Assembly (NCBI GenBank): GCA_015521085.1
Contig: WAOW01000002.1
Coordinates: 1-64,000 of the forward strand
Origin: Candidatus Thermodiscus eudorianus
GTDB taxonomy: Archaea; Thermoproteota; Thermoprotei_A; Sulfolobales; Acidilobaceae
DNA: 64,000 bases
Reading direction: 5' to 3'
The stretch's first letter is position 1; every line of letters starts with the position of its first letter. The notes beneath the pieces were generated by a model. It searched no databases. It saw only the letters and a list, made by a program, of their open reading frames with translations, and was not told the origin of the DNA. Shown piece by piece: positions 6,662-54,114 of the stretch. Position numbers and translations under genes: made by a program.

Positions 6662-7834
6662 CTAATAGTGTTGAGTTATTGAAACCCCAGAATTGTTCGA
6701 ACCCATTCTCTCCCTCACCTTGTCTATTGCCTTGAGTAGGTCCTCCATGGTAATCCTCTTTCTCCCACTCCTAATAGCGTAGTAGCCTGCTTCGGTTACG
6801 ACCGCTTTTATATCTGCCCCGCTAAAGCCCTCTGTCAGGCTAGCAAGTAGTTCGAGGTCTACGTTCCTGGCAAGCTTAACCTTCCTCATGTGTACCTTAA
6901 ATATCTCCAGCCTGGCCTGCTTACCGGGTAGTGGTACCTCGATTATCCTATCGAACCGGCCCGGCCTTAGTAAAGCCGGATCGAGTAGGTCTAATCTGTT
7001 CGTTGCAGCTATCACCTTAACGTTGGACAGGGGTTCGAAGCCGTCTAGCTCCGCTAGCAGTTGGAGAAGCGTCCTCTGGACCTCCCTGTCCCCGCTGGTG
7101 CCTAGATCTGCTCTTCTAGACCCTATAGCGTCTATCTCGTCTATGAATATGATGGCCGGGCTATTGTCGCGGGCGTATCTAAACACCTCGCGGACCAGCC
7201 TAGCCCCCTCGCCTATAAACTTGTTCACGAACTCGCTCGCCACAACTCTAATGAACCTAGCGTTAGAGGCCCTAGCGACTGCCTTGGCGAGCAGGGTCTT
7301 ACCGGTGCCCGGGGGACCATATAGGAGAACGCCCTTAGGGGGCTCTATCCCGACCTCCTTGAACAATTCGGGTTTAACCAGGGGTAGGACTACGACCTCC
7401 TGGAGCTCCCTTATCTGGTCGCCGAGACCTCCTACATCCTTGAAGGTGACGTTAGGCCTCTCGATAACTTCCATAGCCTTGACCATGGGGTCTACACTGT
7501 TCGGTAGGACTCTCACTATCGTCGAGCCCCTGTTGTTTAGCGCGACCCTCATTCCAGGCCTCAGGGTTCTCGGCTCTATACCGTTGGAGACTTTGACTAT
7601 AAGGTTCGGGCCCGTAGTGCTTTTGACCACGACGGAGTCATCGTCTAGAACTTCTATGACGGTGGCCTCTATATGGGGCGGACTCATCAGCTTTTCAATC
7701 TCTCTCCTATACCTCTCAAGATCTTGCTCTAGGCTCATCTTTATCTGGATCAAGTGCTTGACTCTCTCGCGCAGGAATCGCACCTCCTCCTCTACGTCGT
7801 CGAAGTGCCTCCTACCACTAGCACTTAGCGACAA
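6662..7834 (-). CDS. pan: proteasome-activating nucleotidase PAN
   Basis: Hexameric AAA+ unfoldase that feeds substrates to the 20S proteasome. Residues 10-50 are a coiled coil, 52-112 an OB-type domain, then the ATPase with Walker A GPPGTGKT at 173-180, Walker [10 protein letters not shown] at 228-236, and the arginine-finger region LRPGRFDR. The length of 390 is normal. The C-terminus reads ...GVSITQHY: Tyr is the last residue, so the canonical HbYX gate-opening motif (hydrophobic-Tyr-X) is not present. Start is a TTG preceded by GGTGGA; a TATA-like box is 40 nt upstream. Confidence 0.95.
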
Positions 7835-49487: not shown

Positions 49488-49943
49488 TTACCAGATAACG
49501 GTCGCTCCCAGCTTCCGAGCAACATAAGATAAGTCTGTGTCCCCTGTTACAATCGGCGCGCCGCTACTTACAGCTATGGCTATCGTCGTAGCGTCCGCTA
49601 CCGATAGTTTCCTTCGCTTAAGACTGGGATCCTTTGACGCTCTCAATAGTTTATCTCCTATGAGTTTTACATTCGACGCCTTCAATGCAATGTTCAAGTC
49701 TAGGACTGTAATTGTGAAGTACCTGTTTATGAATTCCAGCAGTTCCTCTTCATCTCTGAAGGGCAACCTGCCTCTCTTCCAGTGATAGGCCAGCTCATAT
49801 ACGATTAAGTAGTGAAGCATGCCCTTGATAGTGCCTTTCCTCACTTTTTCTAGAACCTCGGTCACTCCGCTGGGCGCTTGCCCGGTTAGGTCTGCTATTA
49901 TAGCATACGTATCCACTACGACCTTCCTAATCTCTTCAGCCAA
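49488..49943 (-). CDS. PIN-domain toxin (VapC-like)
   Basis: 151 residues. PIN acids: Asp in VVVDTYAIIADL near the N-terminus, Glu in YELAYHW, Asp in LSVADATTIAIA and Asp in IVTGDTDLSYVA. Predicted Mg-dependent ribonuclease. It overlaps its AbrB-type antitoxin gene by 28 nt and is transcribed after it. Confidence 0.9.
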   Translation of the reverse strand: MAEEIRKVVVDTYAIIADLTGQAPSGVTEVLEKVRKGTIKGMLHYLIVYELAYHWKRGRLPFRDEEELLEFINRYFTITVLDLNIALKASNVKLIGDKLLRASKDPSLKRRKLSVADATTIAIAVSSGAPIVTGDTDLSYVARKLGATVIW

Positions 49944-50176
49944 AACTCCTCAGCCTCGTCAAGCTCCCTCTCAGCCTCGTCAATATCTACCCTCAGCTTC
50001 CTGCCCCGCTCTCTCAATTCGCTCCATAAGTCTCTAGTTTTCAAAATGATCGTGTCACCCTCCACTCTTAAGTCGAGGATCATGCCCTCGCTTATTCCAA
50101 GCTTCTCTCGTATCTTCTTCGGTATAACTATAACGCCACGCTTACCAACGCGAATCATGGCTCGGAGCTTAGCCAC
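49916..50176 (-). CDS. AbrB/SpoVT-type antitoxin (VapB-like)
   Basis: 86 residues. The swapped-hairpin DNA-binding domain is RVGKRGVIVIPKKIREKLGISEGMILDLRVEGDTIIL, then a charged helical tail that would block the PIN toxin. It is upstream of and overlapping the toxin gene, the normal order for an autoregulated toxin-antitoxin operon. The 190 bp before it show no other gene. Confidence 0.9.
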   Translation of the reverse strand: MAKLRAMIRVGKRGVIVIPKKIREKLGISEGMILDLRVEGDTIILKTRDLWSELRERGRKLRVDIDEAERELDEAEEFWLKRLGRS

Positions 50177-52502: not shown

Positions 52503-52758
52503 GTGGTTAGCTTTAGGATCCCTAGGAGGCTTAAGAAGAGGATGGAGAAGGCTCAAGCACATTAACTGGAGCGAGGTGGTGAGGAGGGCTATAGAGCAGG
52601 TGGTGATAGTGGAGGAGGCCAGGCTCCGTGGGAAGGATAGGGCTAGGATAGCCTGGGCCTCGCTCAAGATTGACGAGCTGAGACGTAGAGTAGAGGAATG
52701 GAGTAGCGTGGAGGAGCTCAGGAGATGGAGGGAGATTACTCGGCGACAACAGTTATGA
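52503..52758 (+). pseudogene. vapB antitoxin gene, frameshifted
   Basis: GTG at 52503 opens VVSFRIPRRLKKRMEK, an RHH-type VapB beginning, then the frame stops at TAA. One base less at about 52548-52551 would continue into LKHINWSEVVRRAIEQVV and a helical tail RVEEWSSVEELRRWRE, the usual VapB C-terminus. Thus an otherwise recognisable antitoxin broken by a single inserted G. Confidence 0.7.
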
Positions 52759-52914
52759 TAGTGATGAGGAAGGGCCTAACCATCCACGACGCCTCCCTAC
52801 GTAGTCCTAGCTCTTAGCAAACAAGCAATCCTCTACACGGCAGACGAAAGACTACTCAAGAAAATCACAGACCTAGGTATAAGGAAACACACCCGCGAAT
52901 ACAAACTACTATAA
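52729..52914 (+). pseudogene. vapC toxin gene, N-terminal deletion and frameshift
   Basis: Follows the broken vapB. It preserves only the C-terminal PIN part: GLTIHDAS, then after removing one C near 52798, YVVLALSKQAILYTADERLL and KKITDLGIRKHTREYKLL before TAA. The DASYVVLA and TADERL phrases are classic PIN. The N-terminal half with the first acids is missing. Confidence 0.7.
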
Positions 52915-53071: not shown

Positions 53072-53120
53072 TGGCGGGCCCGCCGGGATTTGAACCCGGG
53101 ACCTCCGGCTCCGCAGGCCG
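53072..53120 (-). repeat. partial tRNA-Arg copy, distal attachment-type repeat
   Basis: 49 bp identical to the 3' part of the tRNA-Arg gene at 54037 (from the anticodon loop through the T-arm, acceptor strand and encoded CCA), in the same orientation. The match ends inside the anticodon stem, after which the sequences differ completely. This is the arrangement left by an element that integrated into the tRNA 3' end. Confidence 0.85.
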
Positions 53121-53277
53121 AGGCAATAAATACTTAGGTTGCACTAGTTCATGAGGAAATGCAACATATACTTCAGCATGATAATTCGCCTTGAATCCTA
53201 AGTCCGAATAAGAATGCAACATCACAGGAGTAAAGGCTTAGAGCCTCTAATTACAACGAATATGGTGGGGGTCTGGG

Positions 53278-53475
53278 TTGTCTAAGGTAGTTCGTGTTAG
53301 GTATGAGAAGGGTGTGCTTAAGCCGCTGGAGCCTCTTGACTTGGAGGAGGGTGAAGAGGCTTTTATCACGATAAAGCGTGATATTAGAAGAGTACTAAAG
53401 AAGTATCGTGGTGCTCTCGGGAGATCCTCGATCAAGGAGTTGTTAGAGCTTGAGGAGGAGGCTCATTGGCAGTAG
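53278..53475 (+). CDS. DUF104/AF2212-type antitoxin (VapB)
   Basis: 65 residues. KVVRVRYEKGVLKPLEPLDLEEGEEAFITIK is the DUF104 (UPF0165) beta-hairpin signature of small PIN-associated antitoxins; the C-terminal helix ends EEEAHWQ. TTG start with GGTGG upstream. It overlaps the toxin gene by 10 nt and lies inside the tRNA-flanked cassette. Confidence 0.88.
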   Translation: MSKVVRVRYEKGVLKPLEPLDLEEGEEAFITIKRDIRRVLKKYRGALGRSSIKELLELEEEAHWQ

Positions 53476-53924
53476 ATCGAGCCTATATCGATACAAGCCT
53501 CATACTAGCAATACTCCTTGAAACAGAGAAGAGCAACATGGCTCAGCAGGTTCTAGAGGCTTACAGTGAATACGAATTCATAATTTCTGGTACAGCGGTT
53601 AACGAAGCCCTCTACGTTGCCACCTACGAGTACTATAGGCAGAAAGGAGAAATTAAAGGAAGATACAGCTTGAGGAAATTAATCACAAAGAAGGGTTATC
53701 CAAAAGAGGTTCTAGACACGATAAACTCTTTCTTGAAAGATCTAGATATAAAAATAATAAACGACTACTTTGAATACAACGAGTATCTCAGAATATTACG
53801 AGAATACAAACTCCTACCAAACGATGCACAAATAGCACTAACCTGCAGACACAATGCTATCAGAACCATCCTTACATTCGACGAGGACTTCAAAAGAGTA
53901 CCATGGCTGAAAGTAATCCCCTAA
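53466..53924 (+). CDS. PIN-domain toxin (VapC)
   Basis: 152 residues. PIN motifs AYIDTSLILAILLETEK at the N-terminus, Glu in VNEALYVATYE, LLPNDAQIALTCRHN and LTFDEDFKRVPW. Predicted ribonuclease neutralised by the DUF104 protein encoded just before it. More A/T-rich and Lys/Asn-rich than the surrounding core genes, in keeping with transfer. Confidence 0.9.
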   Translation: MAVDRAYIDTSLILAILLETEKSNMAQQVLEAYSEYEFIISGTAVNEALYVATYEYYRQKGEIKGRYSLRKLITKKGYPKEVLDTINSFLKDLDIKIINDYFEYNEYLRILREYKLLPNDAQIALTCRHNAIRTILTFDEDFKRVPWLKVIP

Positions 53925-54036
53925 ACTAGTGACGACGACGTGATTGATTATCAGACCTGCAAGGTCCTTAGCGCAGCTTCACAGCCCGGTCATTGATACA
54001 CTATGCCCGGGCTTAGTGAAGATTTAGGTGTGTTTG

Positions 54037-54085
54037 TGGCGGGCCCGCCGGGATTTGAACCCGGGACCTCCGGCTCCGCAGGCCG
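54037..54085 (-). repeat. proximal attachment-type repeat within tRNA-Arg
   Basis: This is the copy of the 49-bp perfect direct repeat that belongs to the functional tRNA gene. The pair encloses 916 bp holding only the DUF104/PIN toxin-antitoxin genes. Confidence 0.85.
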
Positions 54086-54114
54086 GCGCTCTCTCCTGGC
54101 TGAGCTACGGGCCC
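54037..54114 (-). tRNA. tRNA-Arg(GCG)
   Basis: Full cloverleaf on the minus strand: acceptor GGGCCCG/CGGGCCC, D-arm GCTC...GAGC, anticodon stem CCGGC/GCCGG with loop CTGCGGA (anticodon GCG, reading CGC), T-arm CCGGG-TTCAAAT-CCCGG, discriminator G, CCA encoded at 54037-54039. No intron. The 3' 49 bp recur at 53072-53120. Confidence 0.95.

Follow-up and report, generated by a model that had tools for sequence, protein, structure and literature searches.

A 965-bp unit (53072..54036, measured start to start, no strand assigned) in the window, by which we mean the whole 64,000-nucleotide stretch of DNA analysed here, is likely a non-autonomous integrative cassette that carries one vapBC pair together with the complete attP of archaeal tRNA-Arg elements and is mobilised in trans, its movement being inferred and not shown. 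Sequence comparison shows the architecture of the unit, the family to which it belongs, the tandem arrays that the family forms, the turnover of cassettes at the tRNA end, and the arms that cassettes have in common with integrase-encoding elements. The archaeal genome from which the window derives comprises 1.52 Mb in 10 contigs and is 95% complete.

The tRNA-Arg cassette in the window

The unit abuts an intact tRNA-Arg(GCG) gene with an encoded CCA (54037..54114, minus strand, called by ARAGORN), which we read as the target gene (attB/attL), and begins with a 49-nt copy of that gene's 3' end, from the CCA to the anticodon stem (53072..53120, minus strand), which we read as the distal attachment site. 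The two copies (53072-53120 and 54037-54085) are identical at 49 of 49 nt, and no other direct repeat as long as 20 nt occurs between positions 50,000 and 58,000. With the tRNA 3' end repeated at both borders, the unit meets the border test for a tRNA-targeted integrative element. Only two genes, for an AF2212-like antitoxin and a PIN toxin, lie in the 916 bp that separate the copies: vapB (65 aa, 53278..53475, plus strand; Pfam PF01954, E = 7.6e-23) and vapC, a PIN-domain RNase (152 aa, 53466..53924, plus strand; PF01850, E = 4.2e-15). An antitoxin gene adjoining a PIN toxin gene satisfies the criterion for a type II toxin-antitoxin system, with activity inferred from the domains. Gene and Pfam domain content of the same 916 bp revealed no integrase, and the further criterion for a tRNA-targeted integrative element, possession of its own integrase, is unmet by the window cassette.

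The original prediction, made before any of these comparisons, had described a perfect 49-bp repeat enclosing 916 bp with only a DUF104-VapB gene (DUF104 being AF2212-like, PF01954) and a PIN-VapC gene, and no integrase between the repeats. Both claims held, with the correction that the 49-bp identity is not the full extent of the unit's conserved features: it also has a conserved arm of ~120 nt at 53121-53236 and a weaker arm at 53995-54036. The former, the anticodon-side arm or leader (53121..53236, plus strand, type 1), is conserved in 30 aligned units and is represented by our profile R1. It contains a TATA-like AATAAATA (53125-53132, plus strand) and three short sites—an inverted GTTGCA (site 1, 53138-53143) and two copies of TGCAAC (site 2, 53160-53165; site 3, 53215-53220)—all read directly from the sequence. 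The latter, the CCA-side arm (53995..54036, no strand assigned), is a weak and partial match, scoring 12.3 bits against positions 1-27 of the 41 in the arm profile.

Closely similar units were found elsewhere. Window positions 53072-53923 are 83% identical at the nucleotide level to L281:3854-4706, a unit that adjoins tRNA-Arg(GCG) in another genus; nucleotide identity reaches 85% between the window cassette and a unit in L141, and 84% between its vapBC part and one in L132. The window's own genome holds at least two further arrays (C4:136.7-138.8 kb and C6:1-5.3 kb). At the head of the former lies a full-length tRNA-Arg(CCG)-like sequence (C4:138728-138811, equivalent to L110:5729-5812) with an abnormal T-loop, left uncalled by ARAGORN, which could possibly be an inactivated tRNA or a modified attachment site. 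We also observed an apparent degraded PIN-toxin remnant, perhaps of an older cassette, just beyond the distal repeat of the window unit (52740-52913), and, a few kb off (49488-50176), a second, unrelated toxin-antitoxin pair with a MazE/AbrB-type antitoxin and a PIN toxin, at which no tRNA fragment was noticed.

Distribution, arrays and payloads of the cassette family

Searching 60 relatives with the unit returned several copies per genome of its opening ~288 nt, which span the tRNA end, the noncoding leader and the start of vapB; these copies are often spaced ~1 kb and terminate at a tRNA-Arg gene. Mapping these recurrences revealed, across these archaea of hot springs and vents, tandem arrays in which a tRNA-Arg gene is followed by repeats of payload, leader and tRNA-end fragment, and which end at tRNA-Arg genes of the GCG, CCG or TCG isoacceptor. 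Unit order is conserved: the tRNA-Arg 3' end, a TATA box with three 8-nt sites (one inverted, two direct), a toxin-antitoxin pair, and a CCA-side motif of ~41 nt. Among 33 type-1 units the median length is 1,031 bp. Aeropyrum pernix carries about six units across ~11 kb at tRNA-Arg(CCG). Profile R1 represents the leader alone and includes no tRNA part except at its edge; within the family it matched 21 of 48 genomes, spanning 10 of 14 genera, and within the order 28 of 214 genomes. Cassette counts per genome are minima, as genomes were examined as stretches.

The anticodon-side arm follows one layout throughout, with the tRNA fragment, a TATA-like box, an inverted short site, a direct copy ~22 nt on and another direct copy ~43-55 nt further, and this layout is filled by three site classes: GTTGCA/TGCAAC (type 1, as in the window), GTCCCA/TGGGAC (type 2) and TTTCC/GGAAAC (type 3). 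Across the fetched stretches, 98 matches to the tRNA-end profile lay outside called tRNA genes, a few of them being intron-split tRNA genes of other kinds, and 65 of the 98 had the arm motif (48 type 1, 11 type 2 and 6 type 3). The arm motif search tolerated one mismatch per site, and a few of these calls may be wrong. At the opposite flank, the ~41-nt CCA-side motif was present at 30 junctions; it was recognisable in 17 of 33 type-1 units and in none of 7 type-2 units (types 1 and 3 vs. type 2, Fisher p = 0.03), and its profile found no match (0/11) at tRNA-Arg genes without an adjacent mapped cassette. In several displaced tRNA-end fragments (L131, L137, L111, L110) we observed that the T-loop is often altered while T-stem complementarity is kept (GGGATTCATGGATCCGGG, GGGATTAGGGACCC, GCGAGTTTGAACCCGCG).

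Most payloads are type II toxin-antitoxin genes of diverse families, with PIN, AF2212, UPF0175 plus DUF3368, DUF433 plus DUF5615, DUF2283 plus DUF4258, and PemK all represented. Among 139 ORFs in and around the arrays we counted PIN (29), AF2212 (24), UPF0175 (7), DUF3368 (6), PIN_2 (6), DUF433 (3), DUF5615 (3), and one each of DUF2283, DUF4258 and PemK; since the 139 include flanking genes, the toxin-antitoxin share inside units exceeds this raw count. A few units hold other content, such as a Csx1-CARF protein; its gene, a type III CRISPR ancillary, was observed at a cassette position in one array (L131:4169-5773, genome G017). No integrase was found within the cassettes examined. Leader type and payload are associated, AF2212 occurring in 32 of 47 type-1 units and 0 of 13 type-2 units. 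Given this link to antitoxin family, the leader may in part control expression of the toxin-antitoxin genes, doubling as a promoter or operator. Type-1 leaders also stand upstream of DUF2283/DUF4258 and PIN_2 payloads.

Looking for the leader in phage, plasmid and viral collections, we obtained no match with one pattern, and plasmid and phage searches matched the tRNA part only. A shorter leader pattern gave nine unconfirmed matches in IMG/VR viral contigs.

Occupancy of the tRNA end was compared between relatives. At the window's own locus, no empty site for the same tRNA was found in a close relative, the flanks of the same-genus tRNA-Arg(GCG) gene failing to align. Among 60 relatives, the neighbouring HMG-CoA reductase gene turned up in only 21, and in those named relatives that were examined it is unlinked to the tRNA. 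As these flanks do not align, we used two complete Aeropyrum genomes for the comparison, which we take to be A. pernix K1 (G016) and A. camini SY1 (G024). At tRNA-Arg(TCG), 5.68 kb of upstream sequence is 96% identical between the two, with identity ending 5 nt beyond the tRNA 3' end. Beyond that point the cassettes differ, with sites at 6847, 7777, 8748 and 9851 in the former vs. 7687, 8642 and 10357 in the latter, before the common flank returns farther out. At tRNA-Arg(GCG), both genomes have in common one type-2 UPF0175/DUF3368 cassette (88%). Occupancy that changes from one relative to another right at the tRNA 3' end, as expected of a tRNA-targeted element, is thus seen at Aeropyrum tRNA-Arg(TCG), and the result applies to that locus rather than to the window's own.

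Integrase loci and the two cassette arms

Relatives of the window's genome encode an integrase family of 431-446 aa with an N-terminal HTH and a PF16795 domain, matched by solved SSV1-type catalytic domains (3uxu, 4dks, 3vcf) and present, when fragments and more distant homologues are counted, in 52 of the 214 genomes examined from the order. At most loci examined, 57-180 nt separate the gene from a tRNA gene on its 5' side, frequently tRNA-Arg and in the same orientation. The original prediction had proposed a search for a tyrosine integrase matching this tRNA; one of the matching type was found in relatives and not in the window's genome (95% complete), and the HTH-PF16795 integrase is likewise absent from the two complete Aeropyrum genomes. 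The only PF00589 protein in the window's genome is XerA-like and lies among housekeeping genes.

Two other groups of candidates were set aside. An SSV-type PF16795 integrase in the window's genome (C6:266164) was rejected as the cassette integrase, its tRNA-like start not being tRNA-Arg. Integrases of ~450 aa with weak PF00589 matches, located 3' of tRNA-Val, -Thr and -Gly genes, were treated as a different group; we observed these in L209, L210, L211, L212 and L213, one of them in the genome taken as A. pernix.

The spacers between tRNA and integrase gene carry the cassette site classes as an inverted repeat. The type-1 repeat GTTGCAY..ATGCAACAT occurs in L265 and L313, with a degenerate form in L312 and a variant in L327, and its internal CATG is also common to cassettes and integrase spacers; the type-2 repeat TGTCCCA..TGGGACA occurs in L158, L264, L266, L268 and L329, and inverted repeats of other classes occur elsewhere. 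Of 20 real spacers, 8 fitted one of two regular expressions, compared with 53 of 400,000 shuffled spacers, a contrast that we offer as description and not as a blind test because the patterns were written after some spacers had been read. A CCA-side profile built from cassettes, with integrase loci left out, matched the type-1 spacers of L313 (36.0 bits, E = 6e-12) and L312 (28.1 bits, E = 2e-9), compared with 8.1 bits for the best of 10,000 shuffled spacers. Collectively, the matches in leader-site class and CCA-side arm indicate that, for type 1 at least, cassettes have both arms in common with integrase-encoding elements, and the criterion of carrying the recombination sites of an integrase encoded elsewhere, here at HTH-PF16795 loci, is met. 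No equally strong CCA-arm match to an integrase locus was found for type-2 or type-3 cassettes. In a search for the CCA-side arm of type-2 integrases, the best match in site flanks, at a type-3 cassette, reached 15.9 bits and was not convincing.

Cassette-type ends were also found on larger integrase elements. In G128, an integrase gene beside tRNA-Arg(CCG) has the spacer repeat GTTTCAG..CTGAAAC, and at a tRNA-end fragment 17 kb downstream GTTTCAG-CTGAAACAT-CTGAAACG follows in cassette layout; no vapBC match was found in this distal-end stretch. In G038, a fragment lies 52 kb from a tRNA-Arg(GCG)-integrase pair and has a type-1-like repeat of the integrase spacer class. That these two ends bound one 52-kb element is inferred from position and orientation only. 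A different arrangement was observed at L312:1-2787 (G063:C65), where a broken type-1 integrase beside tRNA-Arg(CCG) is followed by a serine-recombinase-like ORF and then an inverted type-1 cassette end; the tRNA end and its flank are also repeated there in inverted orientation.

Proposed mechanism, rival explanations and known systems

In the mechanism that we propose, the attP would consist of a core (the tRNA 3' half), the anticodon-side arm with three sites just downstream of the TATA box, and the ~41-nt CCA-side arm. A tyrosine recombinase of ~440 aa, with an HTH and a C-terminal PF16795 domain, would be supplied by larger elements in related archaea and would bind the arm sites through its HTH and the tRNA core through its catalytic part. 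A circular cassette would be inserted at the 3' end of tRNA-Arg, and as the tRNA gene would be rebuilt at each insertion, cassettes would stack, with older ones pushed outward; toxin-antitoxin addiction would select against their loss. The action of this integrase on cassettes, the circular intermediates and the addiction are all inferred, as we have no data on excision, circles, recombination or transfer. Action in trans is plausible given that SSV2 and TKV4, elements with a split integrase gene, are documented to be excised by a complete integrase in trans (PMC8371274).

The original prediction had offered two readings, a large element shrunk to its stabilising module or cassettes moving with an integrase supplied in trans, and our evidence favours the second because of the stereotyped size, the mostly toxin-antitoxin payload, the tandem stacking at several tRNA-Arg genes, the turnover at the tRNA 3' end, and the retention of both attP arms. 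The decay reading, in which larger tRNA-Arg elements were each reduced to a toxin-antitoxin module by the route that produces CIMEs, draws support from the full-size integrase elements that occupy tRNA-Arg genes in relatives and from att-bracketed remnants documented for bacterial ICEs (PMC5704250). However, independent losses would leave varied sizes and gene remnants, whereas type-1 and type-3 units cluster near 1 kb, units hold mostly toxin-antitoxin pairs, and near-identical units occur in different genera and arrays, so we regard decay as unlikely. We give similarly little credence to the possibility that the leader is only a toxin-antitoxin promoter or operator and that cassettes enter arrays by homologous recombination between tRNA-end repeats, without direct integrase action. 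The TATA box and inverted repeat are placed as an autoregulatory operator would be, and leader type correlates with antitoxin family. Against this, the three-site arm stands at the distal end of the G128 integrase element without vapBC, the same inverted repeat lies upstream of integrase genes, type-1 leaders precede DUF2283/DUF4258 and PIN_2 payloads as well, and the CCA-side arm on the opposite flank is also common with integrase loci.

Movement by host XerA, as XerCD moves dif modules, appears very improbable. The XerA-like protein is the sole PF00589 recombinase in the window's genome, is present where the dedicated integrase is absent, and has a parallel in the Xer-mobilised toxin-antitoxin modules of Acinetobacter (PMC13141974); yet the cassette core is a tRNA end and not a dif site, and the arm sites match HTH-integrase loci. 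Simple partial tRNA duplication with unrelated content between the copies, which had been named as an outcome that would refute the original prediction, can be all but dismissed. Any single perfect 49-bp repeat could arise in this way, but dozens of instances, spread over three tRNA-Arg isoacceptors, have conserved arms and a kind of payload in common, and this recurrence in relatives, together with the at least two other arrays of the window's own genome, excludes chance. The other named refuter, that no relative would have an empty site, also fails: tRNA-Arg genes without a cassette exist, and one same-genus genome (L151) has such a tRNA-Arg(GCG) gene, as judged over the 2 kb that its short contig extends downstream.

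The trans-mobilised cassettes that we favour resemble several known systems in part. SSV1 and pSSVi, among other archaeal tyrosine-integrase elements, have the same target and extent, the 49-nt core being 94% identical over 48 nt to the annotated SSV1 integration site, and SSV1-type integrases and the HTH integrase have the PF16795 domain in common. In SSV, however, the attP lies inside the integrase gene (the suicidal type; PMC8371274), whereas the integrase gene in the present loci stands whole next to the tRNA and encodes an HTH, and the cassettes encode no integrase; the suicidal SSV-type criterion is unmet, as ORFs of 431-446 aa stand intact 3' of the tRNA in most loci. Acinetobacter dif modules, like the cassettes, are small, often hold one toxin-antitoxin pair between recombination sites (pdif sites in their case), and rely on a recombinase encoded elsewhere (PMC13141974), but they use Xer dif sites on plasmids, in contrast to the tRNA-Arg 3' half core, three-site arms, chromosomal tandem arrays and PF16795 integrase link of the cassettes. 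CIMEs (cis-mobilizable elements) are likewise att-bracketed and integrase-less, with tandem accretion at the 3' end of a tRNA or other gene (PMC5704250), but are decayed ICEs or IMEs and not uniform ~1-kb units with a dedicated payload and conserved arms. Sulfolobales VapBC loci also comprise many vapBC pairs in variable regions, though reported with degenerate IS copies flanking them and not tRNA ends (PMC3718332).

Integron arrays consist of one-operon cassettes, the toxin-antitoxin cassettes of chromosomal integrons included, each with a recombination site and stacked at a fixed entry point. The tRNA-Arg arrays are similar in having one-operon cassettes at a fixed entry point, but have no IntI, attI or attC, have their own promoter-like leader and a tRNA entry point, and usually have no integrase in the genome. 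The integron criterion (IntI, attI and folded attC) is unmet, nearby recombinases being of the PF16795 type and the site a tRNA end; attC folding was not assessed. A bolder reading would nonetheless see an archaeal integron-like system, with tRNA-Arg genes as fixed entry points, HTH-PF16795 integrases as shared recombinases, and selfish, self-stabilising toxin-antitoxin cassettes with matching arm-site classes (TGCAACAT, TGGGACA, TGGAAACA) and without replication or transfer genes of their own. We entertain it only tentatively, holding it somewhat less probable than not.

No description of tRNA-Arg toxin-antitoxin cassette arrays was found in the open-access literature that we searched, most subscription literature lying outside the search. 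If the cassette interpretation is true, such units would be a source of thermostable, sequence-matched integrase/attP pairs, and the conserved noncoding leader would gain a likely role, inferred here, as attachment-site arms read by the integrase HTH. Because the whole element is one pair plus an attP, it would also allow the selfish-addiction view of toxin-antitoxin genes to be tested directly. It would, moreover, partly explain the accumulation of many chromosomal toxin-antitoxin loci in hyperthermophilic archaea, with the pairs being the cargo of minimal cassettes that have a dedicated entry site.
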